A stretch of DNA of 64,000 bases from assembly GCA_022829145.1 (NCBI GenBank), contig CM040743.1, positions 3,487,646 through 3,551,645 of the forward strand, written 5' to 3'. The stretch comes from Albula goreensis (Eukaryota > Chordata > Actinopteri > Albuliformes > Albulidae). Positions 12,940-64,000 of the stretch are shown here, piece after piece (position 1 is the first letter of the stretch; each line of letters begins with the position of its first letter). The notes beneath the pieces were generated by a model, which saw only the letters and a program-made list of their open reading frames with translations, was not told where the DNA came from and ran no database searches. The translations under genes and the position numbers were made by a program.

Positions 12940-15900
12940 GTAAGCTGGGAGCGATTGGATGGCGAAGGGATGTTTCCCAACCCCGGCTTTTTCCTTTGCT
13001 GGGACACTGATCAAACGGGTGTTGAAAAGTAGACGTAAATAATTAACTAGTATTTGAACATTTGTTTGGTTTGCAACATTGAACGAGTTAAATTACACGA
13101 GTTCATTTGATGCATTATTCCCGCAGATATGTCTGAATTTCGAAAGGCGTTTTCCAAAGCGAAGCACATAGCCGTGATCACCGGCGCTGGAGTGAGCGCT
13201 GAAAGCGGCATACCCACGTTCAGGGGAGCGGGAGGCGTGTGGCGGAAATGGAAAACACAGGTAGGGAACTTCCGCAGTATATCCATAATTCAGATTGTTC
13301 TAGGTCCGTTATTGATCCAGAGGTTCAAGCGTGTTACACGTCAAAGGGCAAGATAGGTCTTTGGACTTTTTTTTCACCATATTTTTTTGGAGCTCAGTGT
13401 TGGAGAGGTCTGCTTTGCTCACTTCCCCCTGTCAGCAGATTTATCTCAAAAAGCAGCTGCTGGTTGGCAAACAATTGCATAACTAAAACCACAATTATCA
13501 GTTGAAAAAATTGCTAGTCAGGGTGAATTGGGGCTGATGAAAGCCCGTTCCTATACACACGGAAAAGACACAGTCTGAGCTCTTTGAAGCCTTATTAATG
13601 ATTGGGTAGTGAGATTTCACTGGACCGAAAATGGGAGGAGCTACCATACACAGTGATTCTATGACTTGGACCAATGACTACATTGGCTGTGGAGAGAAAC
13701 ATTTGTGATTGGTTCAGGTGACAGTTGACTGTAGCTCCACCCTAACAAGGGACCACAAAACCTCATTAATCAACAATTTCTTAGAATACATTTTGAGGGA
13801 CTTTTTTTTAAGCTCCTACTTCAGGGTGGGTACTCTCCCAGCACAAGGGGAACCTTGAGTGACACAAGTGTACGGTGATTGGTCCGGATGTAAGCGTACG
13901 TTGATTAGTCAAACACATGAGCCAGTGCAGCACTGGCGACCACCATTTTTAAAAAAACCGCGCAGAAATGATGCTAGTATGCTAACTCCCGTCTTGCATC
14001 ACTTCAGCGTTCCTGGTGGCGCAAGTGCAAACAGAAAAAAGCCCTTGAAGTTTCGTAGTTCTCGGGGAACCTCCCCAGTGGATAGTTCCTCTCAGAAAAA
14101 GTCCCCAGAACTGTTTTGTCTGAAAGCACCTTGACACAGGTTTACAGTGGCAGAACTAGAAACTTGATATTTGGCTTTCAAGAGGTCGCCACAGCAAACT
14201 GGCAAAGTAGCAGACTTCCAGCCAAGGTACTTCTCTTGGACTGTTAAAAATGATAGCGTTAATGAGCTTGACCCTCCCTGTGCCCTCAGGACCTGGCCAC
14301 GCCTGAGGCCTTTTCGCGGAACCCGTCGCGGGTGTGGGAGTTCTACCATCACCGGCGGGAGATGGCGCTGGCCGCCAGGCCGAACGCGGCGCACAAGGCC
14401 CTGGCCGAGTGCGAGGCGCGGCTGAGCCGTCAGGGCCGCTGGGTCACCATCATCACCCAGAACACAGACGAGCTGCACCAGCGCGCAGGGTCCAAGCACA
14501 TCCTGGAGATCCACGGTGAGGAGAGCCCAGGCCGGGCCTCGATGCAGGGGGCTGGGGAGTGGGATCTGGGGGCTAGGGGAGCTGGTCCTGGTCCTTATTC
14601 TAGAACTGTGGTTCAAGTGTCTCATCATGGTACCACAAACTACACCTAGCTTCTGGGACTCCTCATTGTTCTGGATGACCCACAGTTAGGACAGAGTGGG
14701 GCCGCAGTACAGGGGGCTGGGGCCATGCCTGGATTATGGACTTGCACTAGCTTCTGGGTCTCATCATAGTTCTGGACTATTACTGTTTCTAGTAGTGATC
14801 GTATTTGTGGTGTCTCTTCTGGTCAAGTTCTGATGCTGGTACCAGTTCTGGGGGTGGAGGCGGGGCTAGTCTTGTTTCGGGTTCTCATGAGTTCTGTGCT
14901 GTTTGGGCTGCCGCTCGGGTTCTGGTGTTAGTGCTAATTCAAATTTTTTTAATATGGATTCTGCTCTTGGTCTAAGTGTAGTTTTAGCCCTGGTGTATGA
15001 GTGGGCGTAAGCACTGAGTTCCATAGGTGATGCTGCTGTCCTTGTGGCTATCATGTCTCTGTTACTGCTGCCGATAACATGTCCTTATCACAGTGCGGTG
15101 ACTGTGATCCTTCTTTACTGTCCCCTTTAAATGGTGTTTCACAGAGCAGGATTAAAGAGTTAACCGTCCACCGTGTTGTAAGCGTTATGAAAACAAAGCA
15201 CATTTTAAAACCAATGTCAAAATATTTACAAGTTAGTCGGCTAACTCCTTTAAATCCCCCACTGATATGTGCTGCTCCCATGGTGTTACTGGAACTGTGG
15301 TTTTACAGTATAACAGTACAGCGTTCCTATTGTGTGTCACCACATAGTCGGGAGTCTTAAAGGCTGTTCACACTTGCTAATGTTCCAATCCCCTGTCCAA
15401 TTCATGAGTGTTAGTAATGAAGTGGGTCAAATGGCAGTTTCAGAAGAGCGTGTTATTTTCCTATATCTCTGGGATGTTTGTGTCTGGTGGACCCTGGAGT
15501 TCAGCCTGAAATTGGTGAATGTTTACCCACGTTCGAACACACACACACACGCACACACACACAGCTGTAACTGTTAAACCCACCTATGGAGACGCCACCA
15601 CTATCACTAGTGCTGCTGCTGCTGCTTTTGACACTACTCTTATTGTTGCTGGTTGCTAAGCACTCCTGTTGCATTGTGGGTCATGTAGTTCTGTGATGCA
15701 GAATTGTACTGGTCCCCCAGTTCTTTCCGGCTATGCCCAATTCCTTCCACCTTGTCTGAGTCGAGTAAATAACACAGTGACCTGAGATCTGACGGCCTTC
15801 GTTTGCCCTGGTGGTGGTATTGAAATAGCAGAGGATTATGCGAGTATACATAGCAAGCACCCTTATCCGGAGAAATTACCGCAGCTTATGTTGTTTTGCA

Positions 15901-18900: not shown

Positions 18901-20036
18901 CTCCGCAGGTGGCTTCCAGGGGCGTCCCCGTGGCGGAGTTCAACACGGAGACCACGCCCGTCACAGACAGCGGCCTGTCACGTGAGTGTGAGACGCCAAA
19001 ACCTGTCTGACATGAGGAACCTGTGCAGGGAGACATGCCCAGCGCAACAAACGACAACGAAACTTGGATCAGTGAGGTTTTTGCCTCAATCCTCTGATTG
19101 GCCAAAGTGTCCACACCCTTGTATCTGAGTCAAGGACGTGTCACTTGATGACAGACTTGCAGACACTGTGTGTGACATGCCCAGTGTTACCTGTCTGACA
19201 GACCTGTGTGTGAGACATGCCCAGTGTTACCTGTCTGACAGACCTGTGTGTGAGACATGCCCAGTGTTACCTGTCTGACAGACCTGTGTGTGAGACATGC
19301 CCAGTGTTACCTGTCTGACAGACCTGTGTGAGACATGCCCAGTGTTACCTGTCTGACAGACCTGTGTGACATGCCCAGTGTTACCTGTCTGACAGACCTG
19401 TGTGTGAGACATGCCCAGTGTTACCTGTCTGACAGACCTGTGTGTGAGACATGCCCAGTGTTACCTGTCTGACAGACCTGTGTGTGAGACATGCCCAGTG
19501 TTACCTCTCTGACAGACCTGTGTGTGAGACATGCCCAGTGTTACCTGTCTGACAGACCTGTGTGAGACATGCCCAGACCTGTGTTACCTGTCTGACAGAC
19601 CTGTGTGTGAGACATGCCCAGTGTTACCTGTCTGACAGACCTGTGTGTGAGACATGCCCAGTGTTACCTGTCTGACAGACCTGTGTGTGAGACATGCCCA
19701 GTGTTACCTGTCTGACAGACCTGTGTGTGACATGCCCAGTGTTACCTGTCTGACAGACCTGTGTGTGAGACATGCCCAGTGTTACCTGTCTGACAGACCT
19801 GTGTGTGCCCAGTGAGACAGACCTGTCTGACAGACCTGTGTGACATGCCCAGTGTTACCTGTCTGACAGACCTGTGTGTGAGACATGCCCAGTGTTACCT
19901 GTCTGACAGACCTGTTTCTCAGTGCGTAGGCTGAGCATATCACCTGTGCTGCTTCTGTTCCAGGTTCCACTTCCAGGGTCCCTGCGGTACCACGCTGCCC
20001 CGCGCGCTGGCACGCCATGAAACCGAGGTCATCTGA
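12828..20036 (+). CDS. sirt5: Sirtuin 5, complete gene (8 coding exons)
   Basis: NAD-dependent lysine desuccinylase, demalonylase and deglutarylase of the mitochondrial matrix (class III sirtuin). Coding exons: 12828-12939, 13127-13260, 14290-14515, 16419-16506, 17023-17076, 18303-18426, 18861-18981 or 18985, 19964-20036. Joined in the conserved frame they give about 311 residues, against 310 in human. Visible motifs: NAD-binding [15 protein letters not shown]; Tyr101 and Arg104 in EFYHHRRE, the acyl-lysine selectivity pair that defines SIRT5; catalytic His157 in LEIHG; zinc cysteines C165, C168, C206, C211; and NTETTP near the C-terminus. The first exon encodes a positively charged mitochondrial leader. 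Two oddities: the NAD-site QNID motif reads QNTD, and the strongest donor of exon 7 leaves the wrong phase for exon 8. Other exon phases match the known gene structure. A 5' non-coding exon is implied. Confidence 0.96.
13127..13260 (+). CDS. sirt5: sirt5 coding exon 2
   Basis: Encodes the first half of the Rossmann fold, including [20 protein letters not shown] and [11 protein letters not shown], which bind the NAD adenosine and ribose. Flanked by CCGCAG and GTAGGG; ends in phase 0. Confidence 0.97.
13261..14289 (+). other. sirt5: sirt5 intron 2
   Basis: No other exon is seen. It holds repeat-like sequence: a GGAGGAGCTAC / GTAGCTCCACC inverted pair (13636-13743) and a stretch at about 13840-14120 that resembles a degraded non-autonomous DNA element. 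The identity of the element is not certain. Confidence 0.4.
14290..14515 (+). CDS. sirt5: sirt5 coding exon 3 (catalytic core)
   Basis: 75 codons plus one base, from DLATPEAF to LEIH. It contains the Tyr/Arg acyl-pocket pair (FYHHRR), the NAD motif written QNTD instead of QNID, and the catalytic histidine. GC content and CpG density are much higher than in the surrounding introns. Donor is GTGAGG. Confidence 0.97.
14516..16418 (+). other. sirt5: sirt5 intron 3
   Basis: Non-coding. A run of short imperfect repeats built on GTTCTGG/TCTGGT lies at 14640-14950, a short CA array at 15539-15561, and a SINE-like remnant at about 15870-16135 ends in TTTAGATAAAAGCATCAACT and ACTGCAATA. Confidence 0.45.
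16419..16506 (+). CDS. sirt5: sirt5 coding exon 4
   Basis: Encodes [20 protein letters not shown] and VCAALQGK. The CVSC pair supplies two of the four zinc ligands. Acceptor CACTGCAG, donor GTATGT; ends in phase 2. Confidence 0.93.
17023..17076 (+). CDS. sirt5: sirt5 coding exon 5
   Basis: A 54-nt micro-exon encoding [17 protein letters not shown], the acidic linker of the zinc module. Acceptor is a long T-tract with GTGTTCAG; donor GTAGGC; ends in phase 2 within an Arg codon. Confidence 0.92.
17077..18302 (+). other. sirt5: sirt5 intron 5
   Basis: No exon or clear element is seen. There is a short GT-rich part at 18012-18130 and a SINE-like box (GGATTCAAACCCGCAGCCCT) at 18251-18270. Confidence 0.4.
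18303..18426 (+). CDS. sirt5: sirt5 coding exon 6
   Basis: Encodes [20 protein letters not shown] and onward to CDLCLV. The two leading cysteines complete the zinc site and VVWFGE is the conserved substrate-binding strand. Acceptor CTTCACAG, donor GTGAGC; ends in phase 0. Confidence 0.97.
18861..18985 (+). CDS. sirt5: sirt5 coding exon 7 (donor uncertain)
   Basis: Encodes [20 protein letters not shown] and then [17 protein letters not shown], the NAD-binding GTSS loop and the NTE motif. The best donor (GTGAGT at 18982) ends the exon in phase 1, but exon 8 needs phase 2. A weaker donor (GTGTGA at 18986) gives phase 2 and restores the conserved C-terminus; a third option, GTCACG at 18977, also fits the phase but is poor. 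Confidence 0.85.
19166..19915. repeat. 40-bp minisatellite in last sirt5 intron
   Basis: About 19 copies of a unit containing CCTGTCTGACAGACCTGTGT and GAGACATGCCCAGTG, with variants 2 or more bases shorter by loss of GT or GTGA. The core GTCTGACAGAC is a self-complementary hairpin sequence. The array ends about 50 bases before the acceptor of the last coding exon. Confidence 0.96.
19964..20036 (+). CDS. sirt5: sirt5 coding exon 8 (C-terminus)
   Basis: After one base completing the split codon it encodes [20 protein letters not shown] and EVI, then TGA at 20034-20036. This matches the conserved SIRT5 tail. If exon 7 were spliced at its strong donor, the frame would shift and run on to the TGA at 20098-20100. 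Confidence 0.92.
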
Positions 20037-36331: not shown

Positions 36332-37226
36332 ATGTGTGGATGGGCCCCACGGTCTGCATCCTGTTAAGGCACTGTTCCAGTGTGTGGATGGGCCCCTGCA
36401 TCCTGTCTGCATCCTGTTAAGGCACTGTTCCAGTGTGTGGATGGGCCCCACAGTCTGCATCCTGTTAAGGCACTGTTCCAGTGTGTGGATGGGCCCCACA
36501 GTCTGCATCCTGTTAAGGCACTGTTCCAGTGTGTGGATGGGCCCCACAGTCTGCATCCTGTTAAGGCACTGTTCCAGTGTGTGGATGGGCCCCACGGTCT
36601 GCACCCTGTTAAGGCACTGCTCCAGTGTGTGGATGGGCCCCACAGTCTGCATCCTGTTAAGGCACTGTTCCAGTGTGTGGATGGGCCCCACAGTCTGCAT
36701 CCTGTTAAGGCACTGTTCCAGTGTGTGGATGGGCCCCACAGTCTGCATCCTGTTAAGGCACTGTTCCAGTGTGTGGGTGGGCCCTGTTCACAGTCTGCAT
36801 CCTGTTAAGGCACTGTTTCAGTGTGTGGATGGGCCCCACGGTCTGCATCCTGTTAAGGCACTGTTCCAGTGTGTGGATGGGCCCCACAGTCTGCATCCTG
36901 TTAAGGCACTGTTCCAGTGTGTGGATGGGCCCCACAGTCTGCATCCTGTTAAGGCACTGTTCCAGTGTGTGGATGGGCCCCACGGTCTGCATCCTGTTAA
37001 GGCACTGCTCCAGTGTGTGGATGGGCCCCACAGTCTGCATCCTGTTAAGGCACTGTTCCAGTGTGTGGATGGGCCCCACGGTCTGCATCCTGTTAAGGCA
37101 CTGCTCCAGTGTGTGGATGGGCCCCACGGTCTACATCCTATTAAGGCACTGCTCCAGTGTGTGGATGGGTCCCATAGTCTGCATACTGTTAAGGCACTGT
37201 TCCAGTGTGTGGATGGGCCCCACAGT
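36332..37226. repeat. 48-bp minisatellite (about 18-19 copies)
   Basis: Highly regular array; the unit contains GTGTGTGGATGGGCCCCACA, CTGCATCCTGTTAAGGCACT and GTTCCA. One unit near 36390 has a local rearrangement and one near 36783 carries an insertion. Because 48 is divisible by three, frames stay open on both strands (plus-strand repeat CVDGPHSLHPVKALFQ, minus-strand MQTVGPIHTLEQCLNR). No splice sites, no start context and no family similarity support coding. Confidence 0.97.
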
Positions 37227-43784: not shown

Positions 43785-46700
43785 GTGAGTATCTCCTTTT
43801 GTCAATCAGGTGATATCCGGGGGACCTCTAGTGCTGGTTTGTCAGTCACTCTCTAGCCTTGTGCGTCTCCCTCAGTTTTTGTACATCTGCTGTTATATAT
43901 TGCTTTTGTCTTGTTCTAGCGGTTTACAGCACAGTAAATACAAACGGACAGCGGTAAAAGGAATGTATAGGCTACTTGGTTTCCGCCTCAGCATATAATT
44001 GTAGAATACAACAAAGTTTATCCGAGCATGCTGCTCTCTTTTAATAATCCAAGGGGAAAAACAAGCTTTATTATTATTATTATTATTTATTTATTATTAT
44101 TATTATTAGAAGTAGTAGTAGTAGAAGTAGTAGTAGTGGTATTAGTTGTGGTTTCATGGTATTGTTGTCGTTTTCCTTAGTGAACTGTAATTCATAAACA
44201 TATGGCTCTTGCTCCCTATTGGACAGTTGTAAAATAGAGTTAAACAAGATTAGGCTTATATGCAGCCCATAATTTAATCATAAACTATAATCTCTTTTGA
44301 AAGAGTTACATTGACTAATTACCATATGATAGGGGCTGGGGAATTTAATCTTCCCCTTAGAGTGCAGTGCATTCGAAATCCACGAGCAAGGTGGTTTTGT
44401 TGGCTATCTAGATGTGCTTTGCTTTTGTTTTTCTTTTCCTCACCGACTTAGAGTTAGAACTCAGTACAGATAATTGAACGTGCACTCAAGCCCTTCACCT
44501 CTCGCGGAATAGGATGGGAATCCGCTTCCCTGTTGTGAGAGGTCCGAGTTTAGCCCTGGTGAACAGAAGCCTTCGCGTCATCTCAAAGGAGCGTTGCTTG
44601 GGCAAACCTCCAACAACAGCTTATATTCATGCCGACCATCTGATAGGCGATGGCAGCAGCGACATCTATATATTTTCCGTGTAGGAAAAACACCAGTAAA
44701 TTCATTTTGTAACTGAACAGTTCATACTACTACTTGACAGTATAACAACAACCACTATGACCACCGAGAATGAATTCGACATAATTGACACGTTCCAAAT
44801 CATTTACTACAAGACTGTACATTTAGTTACACGGAGGTCAACACCTCAGATTGTACGCAACGTGTACCAGTCGCCCGCACACTTTCTTTACGTCTTTGCC
44901 GGACGCTTATTGAAGAGTGCGTGACACTTACGGGAATTACGTCGCTGAGTGATGACTGACAGAATGGATGATTTTTTTTCCCATCCTCACGCAGTTACGT
45001 CATTTTCGGTTCAGTTTTATCCCTATGATTCCAGGAGTTGTCGTTATTTTCAGTTCTTTCCTTTTTCCCCCCGAGGGCAGCAGTCAGCGTGTGTGTTTGC
45101 CCTAAGGTACAGATCCCCCCCCCCCACCCCTAGAGAATGCTAGTTACCATCAGCTTATGACAGATGACGGATTTAAGGAATGTTTCATTCTTGTTGCCTG
45201 CACCACATTTTTCGTGTTTTCCAGCTATCACCCCATATAATCATATCAAGTAAAATTAAGACTTGCTTCATAACTGAATGTTAAGGACAAACGGAATTGT
45301 GTTTGGATAGAATATGAGCAATGCAAGCAAACGTAAAAAGATGTATATAATAGAGAGAAGCATTTGTGAGCAGCCATTAATTTAAGAGAGGGTTAAAATC
45401 CAAGTCAGTGGCATGAATTCAGTCACATTTTGTCCTTACCTTTGGCCTGGATTCAATCTACATTTGGTCTGAATCTTTGCCTCAATTGAACTGTTGTTTT
45501 CTCTGATTTAGAGTCAATTGCTGTTTGAATTTAGACCAGAGGCATGTCGCTAACACGCACAACACACAAAAAGGTTCTAAATAGCATCACCACTGTGTTA
45601 TTTATTTGCAATCATTGGGGAGTCCCAAACATGTTTCCCTATGTTTGTAAACAAAGAACCACAGTAGAACCTTTTTATTTGTAAACGTCTTTTGGAACAA
45701 CAACATGACAACCTGAACAAATAACCAAGAATGACAGTGTTCTCACTATAGACGCTTGATTGCATAGAGCTGACATTTTCCAAATGGACAGGGACCAGGA
45801 GAACATATTAACCTTGACATGTAGGTACATTTTCAGCTACGAGCAGATATGTTTGCCATGTAAAGCCACATACTCAATTACAGAAAGGCGGAAAATTAAA
45901 TAGCCAACCATCAACAACAGCCCTCTGTCAAATTTGCCATCAAAAAGACATACATCCCTCATTCTTTTGATAGTAGACTTAGGATATATGATCTTGAGCA
46001 AAGAAACGGATGATGGTTGTTCTCATAACTGTATTTATTTGTGTTTTCTTTGGTGGTTGTCGAGCCAATTGTAATTACTTGTCTGTAGCTGCTGTACTTG
46101 GCTTACTGTGGCTGAAAGTTTCAGGTAATTCCTTTGCCTTCCAAATACCCCTAGTGGAAACAGAATTTGGCATAGTATATTACAAATATGTTGCAATTAA
46201 CATCACAGTATATTTTAAATGTACTGCAATTTATATACTGCAATTTCCATGAGGGAGCATACAAAACAACTCATGACCATAAGTCAAATAAAAATTATTC
46301 ATAAGTCTTCAGGCAACTGAGGTAACTATAGTAATGATAAGATACATATTTAAGTACAGTTGTGTGTGTTTGGAGTGAAACTATGATTTTGTGTGAGCGC
46401 CTTCTCTCTACAGTACCATAGAGCATAGTGCAGTATAAGAAATGCTCCTTCTTTCTATGGTACCATAGAGAGTAGTGTTGTATAAGAAATGCTCCTTCTC
46501 TCTATGGTACCATAGAGAGTAGTGTTGTATAAGAAATGCTCCTTCTCTCTATGGTACCATAGAGAGTAGTGTTGTATAAGAAATGCTCCTTCTCTCTATG
46601 GTACCATAGAGCGTAGTGCTGGATAAGAAATGCTCCTCCTCTCTATGGTACCATAGAGAGTAGTGTTGTATAAGAAATGCTCCTTCTCTCTATGGTACCA

Positions 46701-49700
46701 TAGAGCGTAGTGCTGGACAAGAAATGCTCCTTCTCTCTATGGTACCATAGAGCGTAGTGCTGGATAAGAAGTGTGGTCTTCTTGTAAGCAATGGGGGGGC
46801 ATATTAAAGGGGCCAGTACCAACAGGCTTGACCAAGGGCAGAATTTAGAAACCCCTAATCACATAATCCTGCTATTGAGCTCATTGCAGTGGGCTGTGTT
46901 AAGACTGTGTGTGTGTGTTTGTGTAAGTTTGTGTGTTTGAGTCTGTTTGCCAGTACATGTATATGTGAATCCGTGTGCATCCTGAGTGTTTGGATGTGTG
47001 TTGATTTGGACATCATTGGTCTCAGGTGAAAGCAATGACTCAAACCGGGAAAACAATCATAAACTCTCCTGAGAAGAGGCATGCGTAAAATATGTTTTGT
47101 TTCCATGCATCGCCCTCGAAGAATCTGTCCAGTGCCTAAACTCCTGCATCCCTGCATTGTGATCGCTGCTTTAGTAAGTACTGCTCTCAGACAGTAACGC
47201 AAGAGAGTCTTGAGGTCCCTTGAGATCTGACCGCTTGGGTTCCAAGACCAGCAACCCGCAAGCTGAGCTGTGCCATTTATCTTAGAATAGGCTATTTGCT
47301 CCACCCGCAAAGCCCCCTGTTTATTTCCATTTATCCAGAGCCTCTTGCACACAGAAGTGCCAAAATTACATAAGCCTACAGAATTACAATAAATGACATG
47401 GTGTGCAGAGGAGAGGGAGGGATTGAGGGTATGTTGCGATGAGTCTGAGAAGTATTTTTGTTTACAGTTTTGGTATAGCATAAGTGGGGCACTTAGAATA
47501 AATTGTTGTAAGGTCTTTTGAACCAAGTTGTAGAATAAGCAGGTGCATCTCCAGTCTGTGACAGAAGGGAGACAGTGAATTAAGTTTCCTGGCTGTTGTG
47601 AACCTGCAACACCTGTAAATAATGAAAACCTTAAACACAGGGAAAGTGGTTTTTTTTCTGGACATCGTTGACATGTTGCTGGCTTATGCTTTGTGTTCAC
47701 AATAGCTCCTATTGATAGGCAGTCACAACCCTAGCTGGTACCATTCTCATGCCAAACTGCGGAAGGGAAGTAGATCTAGCCGTGGTCAGTTCTTGGATGT
47801 AAACTATAAAGTTGCACTTTTCTCGCTAGTCCAAAGACACCTTAAATGCCCCACTGCAGTAATGTAGTGGGTGAGGATTTTGGGAATTGAAGTGTTTTCA
47901 TGCTGGTCAAGAACAGAAGCCTGAGCCCATGCCATGAGATGCCATGAGAATTTTTTACACCAAAGATTCTTAAACTCGTCCTATAGAAACCCAAGCTTAT
48001 CCTGTTTTGTTTTTTTTTTTTTTTGTCATCAATACCCCCATTCAATTAAGCTAATTGAAAATGCTCTACCTTTATATTTTTCCCTTCAAAGCTGCAGTTC
48101 AGATTATTTGTTGCTTGGTATTTGCCAGTTCACATCCCAGAAATATGTAATCTTGAATGGCTAGGAATGCGCACATACAATTTACTTTTAGTTCTGAATT
48201 TTGAGCCACTGTTTGCCTAGCATGGCGCTCGTCTTAGGCATAATATTAAGAAGATGCGCCCGTTGAATCTGGTTGTGTCCCTGTGCAGTTTGCCTGGGCG
48301 CATGAACAAACAATCAGCTATAACCGTTAGCATATCCAGCTTCGCACTACTCCAGCGGAAACCGAACTTATGTCGCCTAGGCAACGTCCTTCAAACTCTG
48401 CGCTTTTTATTTCGAGCGACGTCGTTTCAACCCGTTGTCTCCGGTTAAATCGTGGTTTGCGGGTTGTGCATTTAGCGTCATGTTATCACTTGAGAAATGA
48501 TGTGGACGATGTGGTTATGTTTGTCATTTTAAAACTGCAAGAAATGTAGAGATGGAGACAGAGGAGAAGGTACTTGTGTCCATTCAACACAGAAAGAATA
48601 ATGGCGGTGGAGTGTATGATGCTTGTCAGACTGAAAGCACTATTTACTTTTAGCATCTGCTGACCAGTTTATTGATCTGGGATAATGTTCAGATCTGTTT
48701 ATAAATCTTCTGCTCTGTAAAATAACTATCGATTTCATGCAAATTCCTCCCACCACCACCCCAACAGTTGACTTATGAAGCCAAAGGGTCTGACCTTTAC
48801 ACCTTGCCTGAACTCTTTACAGGTTTGGTATGTAGCTATTTGTGCTGTTTTCATGCTCAGTTTCCACACATGGATACGTTTCAGCTGAAAACCATAACCT
48901 GCCAAAAAACAATATACTGTAGCCCTACAGGACCATGACTGAAGACCACTGGGCTCAAAAATCCATAAATCTTGTTTCCGAGGGATAAACTGGCTGAAGA
49001 TTGAAAGTAATATGCTAAATATGTTGGCACTTCGGTCCCCCTGTTCATCACTGACCTACAGCATTTGTCTGTCTGTCTGTCTGTCTGTCTGCCTACCCAA
49101 GCCTAAGGGACTAACGTCTGATTGTTGCTGTCTGCAGCTGGTTGCCAACACAGTGCTGTTCACCAGCGTGAATCTCTCTGGGCTGTTTGTGAGGATACTG
49201 ACTGAGCGCGCTCAGAGGAAGGCCTTCCTGCAGGCACGCAACTGCATCGAGGAGAGGCTGCGCATGGAGGACGAGAATGAAAAACAGGTACACAGACACT
49301 ACACACACACACACACACATACATGCATACACACACACAGACACTACACACACATACATGCATACACACACACACAGACTCTACACACACACACATACAC
49401 ACAGACACACACATACACACGCACACACACACATGCAAACGCATAGCACACATCAATCAGAACAAGAAACAGGCAGACATACACACACACACACACATTG
49501 CACAGGGATGATCAATACAATAAACAGGTACTCTCTCTCTCTCTCTCTCTCTCGCACACACACGCGCACACACACGCAGGTTTGGACAGGATAGACATGA
49601 GTGGCTAGCATTAGGGTTGCCATGGTCATCAGAACACATCTGTGTTCCTGTCGCTCACAGAGTGGGGGCGGGGCAGACAGCAGCCAATCAAGTCCACCTT

Positions 49701-49924
49701 CCTTCTTCCCTCTCAGGAGCGCCTCCTCATGAGCTTGCTGCCCAGGAACGTCGCCATGGAGATGAAGGAGGACTTTCTGAAGCCTCCGGAAAGAATCTTT
49801 CACAAGATCTACATCCAGAGACACGATAACGTGAGGTAAGGACCTCCCTTACCACACCTACCCCACACACACACACACACACACACACGATAACGTCAGG
49901 TAAGGACCTCCCTTACCACACCTA

Positions 49925-49962
<38 letters not shown>

Positions 49963-50060
49963 CGTCAGGTAAGGACCTCCCTTACCACACCTACCCCACA
50001 CACACACACACACACACACACACGATAACGTGAGGTAAGGACCTCCCTTACCACACCTAC

Positions 50061-50093
<33 letters not shown>

Positions 50094-50232
50094 GATAACG
50101 TCAGGTAAGGACCTCCCTTACCACACCTACCACACACACACACACACACACACTCACATTCACACACACACACACACACACACGATAACGTGAGGTAAGG
50201 ACCTCCCTTACCACACCTACCACACACCTACC

Positions 50233-50283
<51 letters not shown>

Positions 50284-50346
50284 CCACACACACACACACA
50301 CAAACACAAACACACACACACATGCACTCACTCACACACACACACA

Positions 50347-50394
<48 letters not shown>

Positions 50395-53300
50395 GGACCT
50401 CCCTTACCACAAAATGTTATACAGTGCTTGTCGTAGGTACATATACACATGCATGTAAATATACAAACACACACACACACACAGAGACATACACCCCTGT
50501 TGGACAGCCAGTACAATTCAGACTGAAATACAATCTTGGATCTTTGATTTTCGTCATTTACCCATGAGCGGATCTGTTTCATGTATGTTGGCACACACAC
50601 CATGGCCCTGTTGTCAAGCATTAAAATCCTGTCTCTTTGGGTTAGATCGCCTTGAGCTCAGCGTTCCATCCCCCTCGCCCCGCACCCCCCCCCAAAAACA
50701 TGGCCGCCAAGCGTGTCCTCACATGACCCTTATCAAAAGGCGTATCGAATCCCTGAGTGCTCACACAGTCCCTGCGTGTTAATGGAACCCACAGTAATTA
50801 TCACTAAGGAATAAGTGAACAGGAAGTCAAGGAGCAAACAAAGACCTTTGTTTGGAAATATTAATAAATCAGAATAGGTTATGCTGCTGATGTCTGAAGC
50901 GCTGACAGCCTGGACATTACCCTGCGCAGTGGATTTTCGGGATTCACTAGCCCTACCCTTCAGGATCTGCCTATCTTCATTTTGTTTTCTCCCCCATTCA
51001 TCCCCTCCCTAAGCAGAAATGTTTGACTGGAAATGTGAGTGCTACACCTTATTGGTTCATACATAATGTATTCGAAGGGGGTGAAACTTTTAATCACAGG
51101 TTAGCCAAGGCTAATGAGTCTCAGGGACGGGAATGCTTATATAGAATGAATGTGATTGGTCGATTCCAAAAAAGGGATGAACCAATCGTAGTTGAGTACA
51201 TCCCCTTATTATAATCTCATTACTCACTCCTGAGTTGTCTGTGACATGGTAGAAAGACTGTGGGAGGTGCCGGGGCTGTTTTGACTGAACAGCTATTGGT
51301 GATTTTTTTGTTTTGATTGACATAAACAACACCTTGGGTCACTGTGATGTCACAATTAACTTGGCTACACCTCTCTAGCTCACTTTCTTGGAGCCATTTT
51401 CTATCAGTAGCCAGGGGATTCGGTTTTAACTTTTTTGGGTTGCTTCCATGGTGAAGAGATATATAAAATATAAATATGTGTGGTTCAATCTGTCATCTAG
51501 CTGTCGAGGGTCATCGTACTGTAACAGATCATAAAAAATGACCTCGGCTGACCCTGAACTCTCATGATGGCCAGGTGTCAGGGAATGGCTTATTTCCTGT
51601 GGAAAGATAATCCCTCCCCATGTGAAAACACTGGGGGCGTGTGGTTTTTTTATGCCAAATACGCCGGCTGTGAGCCGGCTGGAAGGAGTTAGCACCCTAT
51701 TTCAGCACCGTATGCCCTGAGTCCCAAGCCACTTCCACCTGCTGCAAACTGACGGGGAAAAAACCATCTGGATGGCAAAACAAAGACAAACCCACGTGGT
51801 AGCAGTGAACAACAAGGGGCAAGGGATTAAAAAATGTTGGCAGATCTCCGAAGATTACTGAATGCACCTCACAGAATTTGGATTGCAATCTGAAAAGTTA
51901 GCAGCGGAACACACATAGTTTTTTGGTCATGCTGTTGCAGACTAATGTGATTCTCATCAATGTGTCAGCTATAGCACCTCGCTAAGCAGATTAGCTAAAC
52001 TGATATGCAGCTACTGTACTAAAGCCATGTCTTCACCTATTCTTGCTGTTCTGCTGCACGTGGATCCCATGGTTTTCTATACAGGCTGATTGTTTATCCA
52101 TTGGTTTCCGTGGTTTACTCCTTCCTCGTCACCTGTGCAATAGGTGGGCATGGAGGACACCGAATCGCATGCACTCAGTGCCAGTGTGCCTCTGCTCCAA
52201 CCAATCACAGCGCCTGCTTTTCGCACCTCTGCTTTGACCAATCACAACTCATTTAACTCATTAAAGTTCAGGGGTTGCAGCTGCTGTTTGAACGGGTAGG
52301 TAATACACAGGAGTGCACAAGGACCGAGTTTGAGAGCAAACGACTGCCATAAACAAACAGCTTCCTCCACGCTGACCAATCAGAGGCAAGGGACTTAGGA
52401 GACCTGACCAATGAGGAAGCATCCTTTGGCGCAGGTAGTGAGGTGTGTATGCACTGGCCTTGGGCATGGTGGGGATGTACAGTATGTAACTGCAGGGAAG
52501 AGAGTTTGCTCGGCCCGTGGATTAAATCTGCAGGGATTACACTCCACAGAGAGCCTAAACTGCATTGCGTAACGCGCGTGGTTAAATACGGTCTTATCTC
52601 CCCCCTGCTTGTGCGATGCAGTGGAAAGTGGAGCAGAGGACACGCTCGGCCGAGGCCTGGCTGAATGAGCTGCGATATTCTGAAGACGGAAAGTCTTCAC
52701 TGCGTACCACAGCTGATAGCCAAACACCAGCTCCAGCCAAACTTACTTCCTGATTCTACATGGGGGGGACTCATCAGACTAAGATATAGATAGGTCAGGA
52801 AGCAGCTCACAGTTCGAGCTGGAAAATTAGCCCCCCGCCCCCTCCATTTGCTCAGTAACTTTACAAAGGATGGCTGTGTGTTATCTGTAATGTATCCAAC
52901 AAAGTTCATCATGAGATGTGGGAAATTGTTTGCGGAAGATGTTAGAATATTGAATATCGCTGTCGAAATAGATATTCACTGACATGTCGGTTTTTTTATG
53001 GACTTTTTAGATTGTTCAAAAACCAAATCATGTGATCTGTCACCTGACAAAAATCCAGCACAGCACCATTGAGTATGGCAATCACTGTTTGATTAGCATG
53101 CCTGTAATTTGAGTTGCAAAAAAAAAAACTGAAGCAACTTCATCACAGGCATAATGCATGTTAAAATATAGCCAGGTGTTTAAATGAGCAGTGTGTCATT
53201 CTAAGTCACTCTGGGTAAGAGAGTCTCCTAAATGTATTACAGAATACCTCCCCTTAAAGAGTTTGGAAAATCAGTGTATGTGTGATTCTGTGCATAAATG

Positions 53301-55800
53301 TTGCATATATTCTGGGATAGATTGTAATATATACACTACACCATGGAGTGGTCAGTTCTGGGCATGCTCAGTGCAGACTGAGAATCTCAGCTCCTCGATG
53401 TGACACAGCAGAGAGTGGAAGGCAGTGTAAAATGGCTTATGGCATATATTAGAGTAAAACACGGCAGCGATAAACTGTAATTCTCCTTGATAAGGGCATC
53501 TGCTCAGCTCTGTGCCGTAACACAACCTAACAGATCCTTTCTGAACACATTCCTGCTTTTCAACAACTCTGAAAATTAACACTGTCTCAGAGAGCGAGAA
53601 AAAGAGAGAGAGAGTTGCCGACATATTGCTATATATTTTAATGCTGCTTTAATTGTAATGTATCGTAATATTATGTAATGTAATGTTTCTACTGCTGTAC
53701 AGTTGGCCATTCCACCCTTGTAAAGGAGACTACACAGCTTAATTTGATTTTTCTGATAAATAAACATTAAAATAATAATAAAAAAGATAGAGGTAGAAAG
53801 AAAAATGAGACAGACAATGAGAGACAGTGAAAAGAGAGATTGAAAGAGTGAGAGAAAGAGTCACCAGTAAGGTTAACCTTCCTCTGTACGGATGCAAACA
53901 CACACATCAATGGAGGCAGTGCTCTTTCAGAGTCACTGTGACCTCTTCCTGATTAGGTCACCAGGTGCATTGTGGGTCGCATGTGCCAGCACAAGGCTCT
54001 TAATTTCATTTTTTTTTTTTTTTTTAACATACATAGATTACAAAAATACATTTTTCTATGCATTTTTTCTTTGGTGCTGCTTGCATAATATACGAAGGGA
54101 CTGAATACCCCCACCCCCTCGGTGAGAAACCGCAGTTCTCTGCTGGCCGTAGAGAGTGGATGTTTGTTCTTGAGAGTTATTTTTCCCCCGCAATGGTCAA
54201 TCTGTTGCGTTCAGAACGGTCCAGCTGGCACCGACAGATCTGCGGCATTACGTCTGAGGAGTTATATCGAGCTCTGCGCGCGGCAGGGTTTGCCGGCGTG
54301 TTCTGCATGCCCTCGGACAGGGGCGTCGTTTGTGCATGGCATGAAATGGCAGTTCCTGTACCTTTCAATCACGGTCAGATTAGAGAACTTTCTTACATCG
54401 ATCAAGTTGATCGATTCCATGTTCATTCAGTAATAACATTACTGCAATAAGCCGAACATTAATTAGTTCTAAAGCTGATATTGATTTTTAGACTGTCCCC
54501 GGCCCCCCACCATATCAAAATTGATACATTTTCCATGACTAAAATCATTGACATTACTACTTTGGCAGCTGATAATTTTGTGGCTAATGTCGCTCAGCCG
54601 TAGCTGAGTTTTTGTGGAAATGATGCTACTGTTCTCCGAAAAGGCCGTTTAAAAATGCACAATTTAAATAAATCACATACATTTTTCCCCTGATTTTTTT
54701 GCTTAAAATAACTTGTTCAGCTAATATGACAAGTAACACCAAGTGCAAATATGGAGGATAACCACTGTCACCAGAGTTAAGTAGACTTGAGGCTACAGTA
54801 AGTGAGGAGATGATGGAGAAGGTGGGGCTCTTGCCAATACTTTAAGACAAACACGGAATAGCAGGAGACTGTTGAAGCAGTGCTTCTCAAACGTCGTGTA
54901 TGGAGGTAAATTTCAAAGCAGCGCAGGCCCTCCGCACTTGTTTACGCTGCTGAATGTGCATTTGATTATAATTACTATCTTAACAATATCACGGGGGCTG
55001 GGGGAGAGGGAGGCGCAATTACTCTCTCGGGCGCGCTTTTGTTGATCCATAACGATTACAGTGTTCGTTAATCAGGCCTTCGAGAGAGGGAATCACAGAC
55101 GGTTTATAAGTGAATAATTAATACGCGGAACCGAATGGCACACTCGCGCGCGCCGAACGTAACCTCATCAGCGAAGCTCTTCAGAAGCGTAATTGTCTCG
55201 GGTCCAGGTGTCAATGGCAACTACGTGCATAAAAATACCGATGTTAACGATAGGCTTTTCAGCACCTTAAACGGTACAATCATTCTCCGTTCACGCCCAC
55301 TGCGTATACCTGTTTCATAATACTATTTATAAAAAGCTTTTGACATAATTCGGCAAAAAAATCTTAATATAAGCAGAAATGCTGTTGGTCGTAGATGCAA
55401 TCTGAGACAGACAGCCAGTGTTCTTGTAACTGAACACTGAATCCTACTCTCTCCTGCAAACCACTCCTGAATCTAACATTAATCAAGCAAAGTCATACTT
55501 TCCTTTATGGTTACATGGTTGTAGCAATGTTTAAAATGCTAGCAATTAGTTAAAGTCAAGTCATGGCTCTGTCTTGAAACTTATTATTGATTATGCACAG
55601 GGAGTGAAGTGATACTTTTCTTTCGAGTTGGGAGGTGGCTGGTTACAGATGGCCTCGGATGTAAAATGTTAACAGCAAATTTAATTTGTGATTAATTATT
55701 TTATTAATTGAAAAAATAGTTTGACATCTGTGATGTGACAAAGTGGTGTTTAGCAGGTCTATCTGAATGATGACGATGATGTAATTCATGGAGCTGTTAA

Positions 55801-55884
<84 letters not shown>

Positions 55885-55910
55885 ACACACACACACACAT
55901 ACACACATAT

Positions 55911-55951
<41 letters not shown>

Positions 55952-56396
55952 CTGCTGTGACGAGTCTGAAAGGAGATCAGTTTTTACTTTTATTCCATGT
56001 ACGTTTTGTTGTCATTAAAATGTCATAATAGGCATGTCTGCTGCTGGGACCCAGCCAAACTCACATTTAGCCTCATTATGGGCCAAACGTCTTTTGAAAC
56101 TTATTTTCATTCTAAAACAGACCTGCGTGCCATATTTAGCTTTGCACTTCTGACATGAGAAATGTATTGTGCGCTACGGCTGCATAGCTGTTAGAGTAAT
56201 TGTCAGGGAACAGTTTGTCTGGAAAAACGTTTGCATGTGAATCGTTTGCATCTGACTAACCTGGCGTGCTGTTTCTTCCCCCAGCATCCTGTTTGCAGAC
56301 ATCGTGGGCTTCACCAGCCTGGCTTCCCAGTGCACGGCTCAGGAGCTTGTCAAGCTGCTGAACGAACTCTTCGGGAAATTCGACGAGCTGGCTACG
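43176..56396 (+). CDS. adcy1: Adenylyl cyclase type 1, 5' part (4 coding exons)
   Basis: Membrane-bound adenylyl cyclase that converts ATP to cAMP; type 1 is the calcium/calmodulin-stimulated neuronal form. Exons: 43176-43784, 49138-49287, 49717-49835, 56285-56396; together about 330 residues. The order is a type-specific N-terminus, five membrane helices in exon 1, the sixth in exon 2, the conserved juxtamembrane [14 protein letters not shown], the linker [20 protein letters not shown], and the start of the C1a catalytic domain with FADIVGFT (first metal-binding Asp near residue 298). Similarity is clearly closest to ADCY1 among the nine membrane cyclases ([41 protein letters not shown]). 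The second metal Asp (ILGDCYY exon), the second membrane block and C2 are to the right of the window. Whether it is the a or b fish paralog cannot be told. The donor of exon 3 is duplicated in tandem downstream. Confidence 0.95.
43785..46395 (+). other. adcy1: adcy1 intron 1, left part
   Basis: No exon is visible. It contains a (TTA)n array at 44070-44106 followed by a GTA-rich run to about 44140, and a C-run at 45115-45126. Confidence 0.5.
46399..46770. repeat. 47-bp palindromic minisatellite
   Basis: Eight units; each has the perfect 18-base palindrome CTCTATGGTACCATAGAG (degenerate in the first unit) plus a GTATAAGAAATGCTCCTT spacer. Units alternate between GAGAGTAGTGTTGTATA and GAGCGTAGTGCTGGATA types, so the array also has a higher-order pattern. 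Confidence 0.95.
46771..49064 (+). other. adcy1: adcy1 intron 1, right part
   Basis: Non-coding as far as can be judged. It includes an unusually long unassigned minus-strand open frame (47700-46855) that has no recognisable domain, and a T-run at 48007-48024. Confidence 0.4.
49065..49092. repeat. (CTGT)n microsatellite
   Basis: About six to seven CTGT units, 45 bases before the acceptor of adcy1 coding exon 2; it lies just upstream of the branch-point zone. Confidence 0.9.
49138..49287 (+). CDS. adcy1: adcy1 coding exon 2 (TM6, juxtamembrane)
   Basis: 50 codons, phase 0 to 0. [20 protein letters not shown] is the sixth helix; [20 protein letters not shown] and MEDENEKQ form the helix leading to the C1 domain. 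Acceptor TCTGCAG, donor GTACAC, which runs straight into a CA array. Confidence 0.97.
49290..49500. repeat. (CA)n array in adcy1 intron 2
   Basis: Impure CA with CATACATGCA and AGACACTACA units, starting two bases after the exon 2 boundary. Short CT and CA runs follow at 49533-49580. Confidence 0.95.
49717..49835 (+). CDS. adcy1: adcy1 coding exon 3
   Basis: 39 codons plus two bases: [20 protein letters not shown], then [19 protein letters not shown] and the start of a Ser codon. This is the conserved lead-in to the C1a domain. Acceptor CCTCTCAG, donor GTAAGG at 49836. Reading past the donor gives an immediate TAA. Confidence 0.97.
49822..50220 (+). repeat. Tandem copies of the adcy1 exon 3 donor
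   Basis: Six copies of the last exon bases, the donor and the first intron bases (ACGATAACGTGAG joined to GTAAGGACCTCCCTTACCAC), separated by CA arrays. Exon-intron junction equivalents are after 49835 (used), 49899, 49968, 50034, 50104 and 50194. Copies 2, 3 and 5 have GTCAG in place of GTGAG; every GTAAGG is intact. A seventh, broken copy without the GT is at 50393-50412. Confidence 0.95.
50222..50395. repeat. (CA)n array in adcy1 intron 3
   Basis: CA array with CCTAC, AAACA and CTCA interruptions, continuing the donor-repeat region. Confidence 0.95.
50413..55800 (+). other. adcy1: adcy1 intron 3, main part
   Basis: No exon supported. There is a SINE-tail remnant at 53200-53240 (GTCACTCTGGGTAAGAGAGT, CTCCTAAATG), a GA-rich patch at 53588-53615, a T-run at 54009-54024, and a 130-codon unassigned plus-strand frame at 54058-54450 without recognisable similarity. 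Confidence 0.45.
55802..55946. repeat. (CA)n microsatellite
   Basis: Nearly pure CA of about 145 bases in adcy1 intron 3, 340 bases before exon 4. Confidence 0.97.
56285..56396 (+). CDS. adcy1: adcy1 coding exon 4 (start of C1a)
   Basis: After one base completing Ser, encodes [20 protein letters not shown] and [17 protein letters not shown]. Contains the first metal-binding Asp of the catalytic core and the start of the helix that packs at the C1/C2 interface. Acceptor CCCCCAG, donor GTGAGT; ends in phase 0. This is the last adcy1 exon in the window. Confidence 0.97.
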
Positions 56397-63517: not shown

Positions 63518-64000
63518 CAAAGGCTAGCTTCCAGGGCTAGGCTCGGCCATGCTAGGTTACCGCTAACGTTGAATGTCCCATCATTCCTTCTCTCTCTCCC
63601 TTTTCTGTTTCGATTTGTGACTGACAGAAACACTGTTGATGGATCAAAATGTAGGCCCCAGGCTTTTTTATCTGCAATGATACCAAACAAAAGCTAGCTT
63701 CCGGGGCCAGGCTAGGCTAGGGTAAGCTAGGCTATGCTAGGCTTCTGCTAACGCTGAACGTCCCATCACTCCTTCTCTCTCTCTCTTTTCTGTTTTGATT
63801 TGTAACTGACAGGAGAAACACTGTTGATGGATCAAAATGTAGGCCCCAGGCTTTTTTATCTGCAATGATACCAAACAAAAGCTAGCTTCCGGGGCCAGGC
63901 TAAGCTAGGGTAAGCTAGGCTATGCGAGGCTACTGCTAACGTTGAACGTCCCATCACTCCTTCTCTCTCTGTCTTTTCTGTTTTGATTTGTAACTGACAG
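63518..64000. repeat. 170-188-bp tandem repeat, open at right edge
   Basis: Three units beginning at about 63521, 63691 and 63879. Shared blocks: AGCTAGCTTCCGGGGCCAGG, GCTAACGTTGAACGTCCCAT, CTCTCTCTTTTCTGTTTTGA with TTTGTAACTGACAG, ACACTGTTGATGGATCAAAA and AGGCTTTTTTATCTGCAATG. Units 2 and 3 are about 95 percent alike by eye. The array continues beyond the window. Confidence 0.95.

Follow-up and report, generated by a model that had tools for sequence, protein, structure and literature searches.

Why does the 5' splice site of a single exon occur six times in a row? The question is raised by a stretch of 64,000 nucleotides from the fish Albula goreensis (the window, to which the positions below refer). 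An earlier note had claimed that the donor of adcy1 coding exon 3 is tandemly copied six times, and we confirmed this at all six junction positions. Judging from the sequence, the array is probably a young and neutral minisatellite lying across the junction of exon and intron (a "mirage"), with the first donor normally used. The structure of the array comes from one assembly and one individual, as follows (a slash marks the exon-intron junction).

49708-49716, + strand: acceptor of adcy1 exon 3, CCCTCTCAG (from the sequence).
49717..49835, + strand: adcy1 coding exon 3, ERLLMSLL...RHDNV plus AG, phase 2 (from the translation and an adenylyl cyclase match in the PDB).
49821..50220, + strand: compound minisatellite with six copies of exon end, donor and 27 intron bases, and CA runs between them.
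49821..49824, + strand: ACAC within exon 3, with homology to the CA run in the intron; the duplication probably has its left breakpoint here (from the sequence and the start of the Tandem Repeats Finder array).
49835..49853, + strand: copy 1, the genuine donor GAG/GTAAGG, within the hairpin GGTAAGG-ACCTC-CCTTACC.
49899..49917, + strand: copy 2, donor CAG/GTAAGG, same hairpin.
49968..49986, + strand: copy 3, donor CAG/GTAAGG, without the upstream CACGAT, same hairpin.
50034..50052, + strand: copy 4, donor GAG/GTAAGG, same hairpin.
50104..50122, + strand: copy 5, donor CAG/GTAAGG, same hairpin.
50194..50212, + strand: copy 6, donor GAG/GTAAGG, same hairpin.
50221..50392, + strand: CA-rich tail with two stray CCTACC unit fragments, at 50227 and 50280.
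50393..50411, + strand: seventh, truncated copy, AAGGACCTCCCTTACCACA, which has lost the GT and abuts unique intron sequence.
56285..56396, + strand: adcy1 exon 4, to which all six donors would be expected to splice (from the sequence and matches of the exon 3+4 peptide).

In a search of the PDB, the exon 3 peptide matched adenylyl cyclase type 5 (3.5e-10). The joined peptide of exons 3 and 4 matched the domains Guanylate_cyc (1.4e-14) and AC_N (4.5e-4, which is under the AC_N cut-off). By its peptide sequence, the gene is probably adcy1 rather than another adenylyl cyclase. The last codons of exon 3 are CAC GAT AAC GTG AG, and intron 3 (49836-56284; 6.4 kb) begins with GTAAGG. (The exon 2 donor of the same gene, CAG/GTACAC, is weak, at 4.4 bits by the approximate weight matrix that gave all our donor scores. 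An imperfect CA-rich array starts inside this donor itself, from 49290 according to Tandem Repeats Finder, and no donor copies were seen in 49287-49433.)

Tandem Repeats Finder places a 68-bp array from 49821 onwards. From there, the six copies follow one formula: ACACGATAACGT, then G or C, then AG, the junction, and GTAAGGACCTCCCTTACCACACCTACC. The earlier note was right that the exon end and the donor are copied, but the intron part of the unit is 27 bases long rather than about 20. This intronic core, GTAAGGACCTCCCTTACCACACCTACC, is identical in all six copies, which implies that the array is young or homogenised. On the exon side, a 15-nt tail is copied exactly, and there are two flavours, GTGAG (copies 1, 4, and 6) and GTCAG (copies 2, 3, and 5), both of which encode valine. 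Successive copies are 64, 69, 66, 70, and 90 bases apart, so the length of the CA runs varies. On the + strand, the 19-mer GGTAAGGACCTCCCTTACC starts at 49835, 49899, 49968, 50034, 50104, and 50194; neither strand of the window has it at any other site. A search of the 932-Mb genome gave no exact copy outside the adcy1 array among the matches listed.

The unit is flanked by the ACAC within the exon on one side and the CA run of the intron on the other, an arrangement consistent with slippage or unequal exchange. It had already been suggested that a CA run captured the exon edge, and the anatomy bears this out: the exonic ACAC shares homology with the CA run, and the array found by Tandem Repeats Finder starts exactly at its first base. 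We propose that slippage or unequal exchange between the intronic (CA)n and the exonic ACAC copied the exon end, the donor, and 27 bases. Whole units would later have been amplified and have exchanged sequence, leaving mixed GTG and GTC flavours, CA runs of variable length, and a last copy that is broken. The extra copies all follow an intact exon and its donor, so the genuine first donor remains usable and the array would be tolerated. By default, then, we would not regard it as a device, and exon 3 would normally be joined from copy 1.

A caveat is that repeats containing CA runs are error-prone, so the array might be an artefact of the assembly. But the copies vary in CA length, flavour, and boundaries, the array sits on a 50-Mb contig (C3), and similar arrays lie at other exons of this assembly (see below). 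We consider an artefact very unlikely.

Mirages were described in amphioxus as minisatellite-like tandem duplications of exon-intron boundaries, in the genes for Adh3, the globins BflGb6 and BflGb9, TnC, and PGBD5 (PMC3087553, PMC3902484). They are reported to be unstable in length and to leave regular splicing undisturbed, and the authors state that the copies could act as cryptic sites. Mirages resemble the adcy1 array in having tandem units that span the exon edge and the AG/GT signal, beside the genuine site. We also count the concerted evolution of the units as shared. The adcy1 array differs in its vertebrate host, in its 64-90-bp units that are set apart by CA microsatellites, and in the 7-bp donor hairpin of each copy. 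Since its unit holds the exon edge and the splice signal, and since it adjoins the genuine boundary, the adcy1 array is by structure a mirage, of a vertebrate, CA-interrupted, and hairpin-bearing variety. We found no report of mirages in fish in an open-access library of papers, where reports of tandem repeats at exon edges came from amphioxus and from human genes within segmental duplications.

Several other systems are related. In human genes within segmental duplications, variable internal tandem repeats at exon-intron boundaries are reported to lead to alternative splicing and novel introns (PMC2812944). These repeats also lie at an exon boundary of a vertebrate gene, but effects on transcripts are reported for them, whereas the adcy1 array is known from genomic sequence alone. 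In the Rogers model of intron gain, as in potato RdRp, a segment with AGGT is duplicated in tandem (PMC4974935). Here, too, a local duplication yields tandem AG/GT, but in adcy1 an existing boundary is copied within its own intron. Intron 4 of DOK7 has competing alternative 5' splice sites (PMC5585400), and in both genes several donors share an acceptor and the wrong choice truncates the protein. However, DOK7 has two unlike sites that are 11 nt apart, while adcy1 has six near-identical sites over 359 nt. In MSTN-2 of Sparus, repeats form a block in the 5' end of intron 1 (PMC3045353), though the exon edge is not described as part of it.

Would the extra copies work as donors? They had been described as full-strength sites, and indeed none scores below the genuine donor: the CAG/GTAAGG copies reach 11.6 bits, as compared to 10.7 bits for the genuine GAG/GTAAGG. 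Three of the five extra donors (copies 2, 3, and 5) match U1 better than the genuine donor does (computed pairing of -11.5 vs. -10.1 kcal/mol). Across the window, 11 sites on the + strand score at least as high as the genuine donor, with six in the array and 5 elsewhere, and another 5 do so on the - strand. Strong donors are thus clustered in the array, where the genuine donor has the weaker flavour.

Reading on from the first donor gives AGG TAA, so whichever of copies 2-6 is spliced, the message has an arginine and then a stop, as the earlier note had pointed out. Splicing from these copies would add 64-359 nt. The downstream copies might be poison donors whose regulated use lowers the output of adcy1 via nonsense-mediated decay. 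Five extra strong donors, three of them exceeding the genuine one, and a premature stop upon every use of copies 2-6 would suit this role, and the human repeats at exon-intron boundaries are reported to alter splicing (PMC2812944). However, the arginine-stop is generic, as any phase-2 exon that ends in AG/GTRAG reads AGG TAA; the same arginine-stop follows in 5 of the 12 other exon-edge arrays that we found in this genome. Furthermore, amphioxus mirages are reported to be silent (PMC3087553, PMC3902484).

Paralogous adcy exons also argue against poison donors and for the minisatellite reading, as three of them in the same genome each have a single donor. The adcy1-like exon on contig C16 is 88% identical to exon 3 over 125 bases and has the donor CAG/GTACAC; L003 and L008 are adcy exons that are more distant from exon 3. 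In each of the three, the 10-mer at the donor does not recur within about 1,500 bases of intron, and AGGTRAG is absent from the first 600. Overall, we consider regulated poison donors to be unlikely. If the array is instead a tolerated minisatellite, as we propose, then occasional use of copies 2-6 would yield arginine-stop messages that nonsense-mediated decay would clear.

Each donor could also be hidden in RNA structure. GGTAAGG and CCTTACC can form a perfect 7-bp stem with a 5-nt loop, and this includes the genuine donor; in all six copies, the donor is the 5' arm. When copy 1 is folded with its surroundings (101 nt), the hairpin is part of the minimum-energy structure. In a fold of the 705-nt array, the hairpin forms at every copy (z = -11 vs. 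20 shuffles, a value that is inflated by the repetition of the sequence). The G flavour gains three additional pairs, with a local fold of -13.4 vs. -10.4 for the C flavour. In a 120-nt context, the cost of opening the donor is about 13.3 kcal/mol in the G copies and about 10.8 kcal/mol in the C copies, while for the 217 other AGGT sites in the window the median is 4.6 and the 95th percentile is 10.2. Within adcy1, the cost is 1.1 for the exon 2 donor and 5.4 for the exon 4 donor (11.6 in a 240-nt context). The donors of the three paralogous adcy exons range from 3.7 to 5.1, and six exon-edge donors elsewhere in the genome range from 3.1 to 14.3.

This leads to another reading, in which the U1-like CCTTACC arm caps each donor and the array tunes which site opens. 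The G or C at -3 would then set both the pairing with U1 and the strength of the hairpin, and the CA runs may bind hnRNP L, which binds CA repeats. Besides the presence of the hairpin in six of six copies, the cost of opening copy 1 (13.3 kcal/mol) speaks for this, as just 5 of the 217 other AGGT sites cost 13.1 kcal/mol or more. Also, among the matches listed in a genome search, GGTAAGG-N3-9-CCTTACC occurs at 15 places, and 6 of these are in the adcy1 array. But a reversed control occurs at 31 places among the matches listed (another palindrome has 0 and its reverse has 8), so the hairpin motif as such is not enriched genome-wide. What is special is that it lies sixfold on the donors of one intron, and even this counts as one event, since one ancestral stem was copied six times. 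Furthermore, the 101-nt fold around copy 1, taken as a whole, is just modestly better than shuffles (z = -1.78, with 9 of 200 shuffles equalling or beating it). High opening costs also arise without the adcy1 stem: the donor of the exon-edge array L044 costs 14.3 without having GGTAAGG/CCTTACC, and the exon 4 donor reaches 11.6 in the longer context. Finally, folding of naked RNA is a poor predictor of splicing. We think that hairpin-gated choice is quite unlikely.

On the other hand, copies 2, 3, and 5 pair better with U1 and are less masked, so thermodynamics alone would favour the wrong sites. As computed, this preference is the strongest point against our reading of a tolerated array. The six donors are near-identical, face one acceptor, and differ mainly in their order and in the -3 base, which makes them a natural experiment on position vs. 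strength. If donor 1 is used nevertheless, then position or early commitment beats strength; otherwise, the poison-donor model gains. Since six sites complementary to U1 lie close to where a long intron begins, they could also act in telescripting, by shielding the 6.4-kb intron from premature polyadenylation, but the array is young and we consider this role extremely improbable.

Is the adcy1 array unique in its genome? To take a census, we counted three donor motifs in a row, with overlapping hits included, so there are fewer arrays than hits. MAGGTRAG triples with gaps of 40-70 gave 3989 hits on both strands, as compared to 791 for the reversed control, 752 for the permuted MATGGRAG, and 1100 for its reverse. 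Triples of CAGGTGAGT with gaps of 20-50 gave 735 hits vs. 78 when reversed, and those of CAGGTAAGT gave a small excess (78 vs. 52 for the control). The excess over permuted controls was 3.6 to 9.4x for MAGGTRAG and CAGGTGAGT and 1.5x for CAGGTAAGT. Triples of CAGGTGAGC had 686 hits vs. 5 for the reversed control, but this count is dominated by one giant array on C3 and the reversed control is unfair because it holds CpG. (The giant array extends from C3:48722840 to at least 48725185, near the contig end, and has a 34-bp unit that starts with CAGGTGAGC and at least about 60 tandem hits.) As single motifs, MAGGTRAG and its controls occur with similar frequency in the rest of the window (9 vs. 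8-12, which are small numbers). By eye, contig C1 has at least about 22 MAGGTRAG clusters, listed up to 68.1 of its 72.1 Mb, vs. about 8 control clusters on C1.

We then read the sequence upstream of the first donor in 57 arrays, a non-random sample from position-ordered and mostly truncated lists. The sample includes 20 of about 22 listed clusters for MAGGTRAG, 20 of about 23 for CAGGTAAGT (one more was already in the sample), 10 new ones of 15 for CAGGTGAGT, and 7 new ones of 12 for CAGGTGAGC (clusters were counted by eye). Two arrays could barely be judged (L068, which has N upstream, and L086, with 39 upstream bases). We classified 43 arrays as not coding, meaning that about 210-260 upstream bases had no convincing open frame; untranslated exons would escape this test. 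In 12 of the 57 arrays, the repeat starts at or beside the donor of a coding exon (L042, L044, L048, L050, L056, L071, L080, L089, L090, L091, L094, and L095). Nine of the 12 are backed by protein homology:

L042: Rab6-interacting protein 1 (dennd5-like), 4.5e-21.
L090: radial spoke, 3.8e-18.
L094: V-set, 1.4e-10.
L091: Fibrinogen_C, 1.7e-9.
L095: tRNA-synt_1 (class I tRNA synthetase), 1.8e-8.
L050: C2H2 finger, 4.1e-6.
L048: GHMP_kinases_C, 3.7e-5 (presumably fucokinase-like).
L080: harmonin, 1.3e-4.
L089: Ion_trans, 7e-4, under the cut-off.

For L044, L056, and L071, the coding status comes from open frames alone, and the L044 peptide, searched against the genome, matched nothing but itself. 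In L071, the exon's donor is 321 bases ahead of the first strict copy of CAGGTAAGT, with looser copies bridging the gap. Half of the 12 arrays (L042, L044, L048, L056, L090, and L091) contain exact copies of 10-38 nt of exon tail. In the other six, the overlap with the exon is just 3-6 bases, which makes them repeats that start at a donor rather than clear copies of an exon edge. The cleanest parallel to adcy1 is L042, where a 32-nt unit made of exon tail and donor occurs ten times in four versions, the commonest of which is present five times. So, this class of array is recurrent in the genome, and adcy1 is no singleton. The earlier note had mentioned neither this recurrence nor the hairpins, the stronger CAG copies, and the seventh fragment. 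By analogy, the similar arrays at other conserved exons in this genome and the reported amphioxus cases favour tolerance.

Two of these arrays have features of their own. In the Fibrinogen_C array (phase 1), the last 38 bases of the exon and the donor are copied exactly in at least one 58-bp unit. In L056 (phase 0), the first units are open in frame and encode VSVLDLELQEHTQ almost twice; about 80 further residues follow before a stop, so later donors could insert repeated peptide.

Do such arrays arise at donors? The share of arrays at exon edges was 5/20 for MAGGTRAG, 1/20 for CAGGTAAGT, 1/10 of the new arrays for CAGGTGAGT, and 5/7 of the new arrays for CAGGTGAGC. We rejected this share as proof of nucleation at donors, because real donors may be perhaps a third of all MAGGTRAG motifs (an estimate). 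The share, measured within arrays of donor motifs, also varies greatly from one motif to the next. We also dropped a possible phase bias. Of 13 exon-edge arrays, including adcy1, 6 are in phase 2, 5 in phase 0, and 2 in phase 1, which is borderline relative to the usual phase shares of vertebrates and was noticed post hoc.

A bolder proposal would combine both levels: the 5' splice sites of Albula goreensis would be hotspots for the birth of minisatellites, and the adcy1 array would be a donor selector. Its copies would be masked by their own U1-like arm, and a protein-silent G/C base, movable between copies by gene conversion, would switch both the masking and the pairing with U1. The excess of donor triples and the arrays that start at coding exons would suit it, but we consider this combination unlikely. 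Still, several exon-edge arrays in one fish genome suggest a class of mutation, and such repeats could seed new introns, a hidden load of nonsense-mediated decay, and length polymorphism at exon borders.

The 64-kb region is rich in tandem repeats. A 47-bp minisatellite with about 8 copies lies at 46400-46770, and its unit holds the palindrome TCTCTATGGTACCATAGAGA (spotted by eye). Other long minisatellites are at 1-834, 19167-19915, 36333-37226, and 63533-64000, with units of 39, 40, 48, and 188 bp. There is also an open frame at 13111-13353 that, by eye, seems to resemble an N-terminal exon of sirtuin 5.
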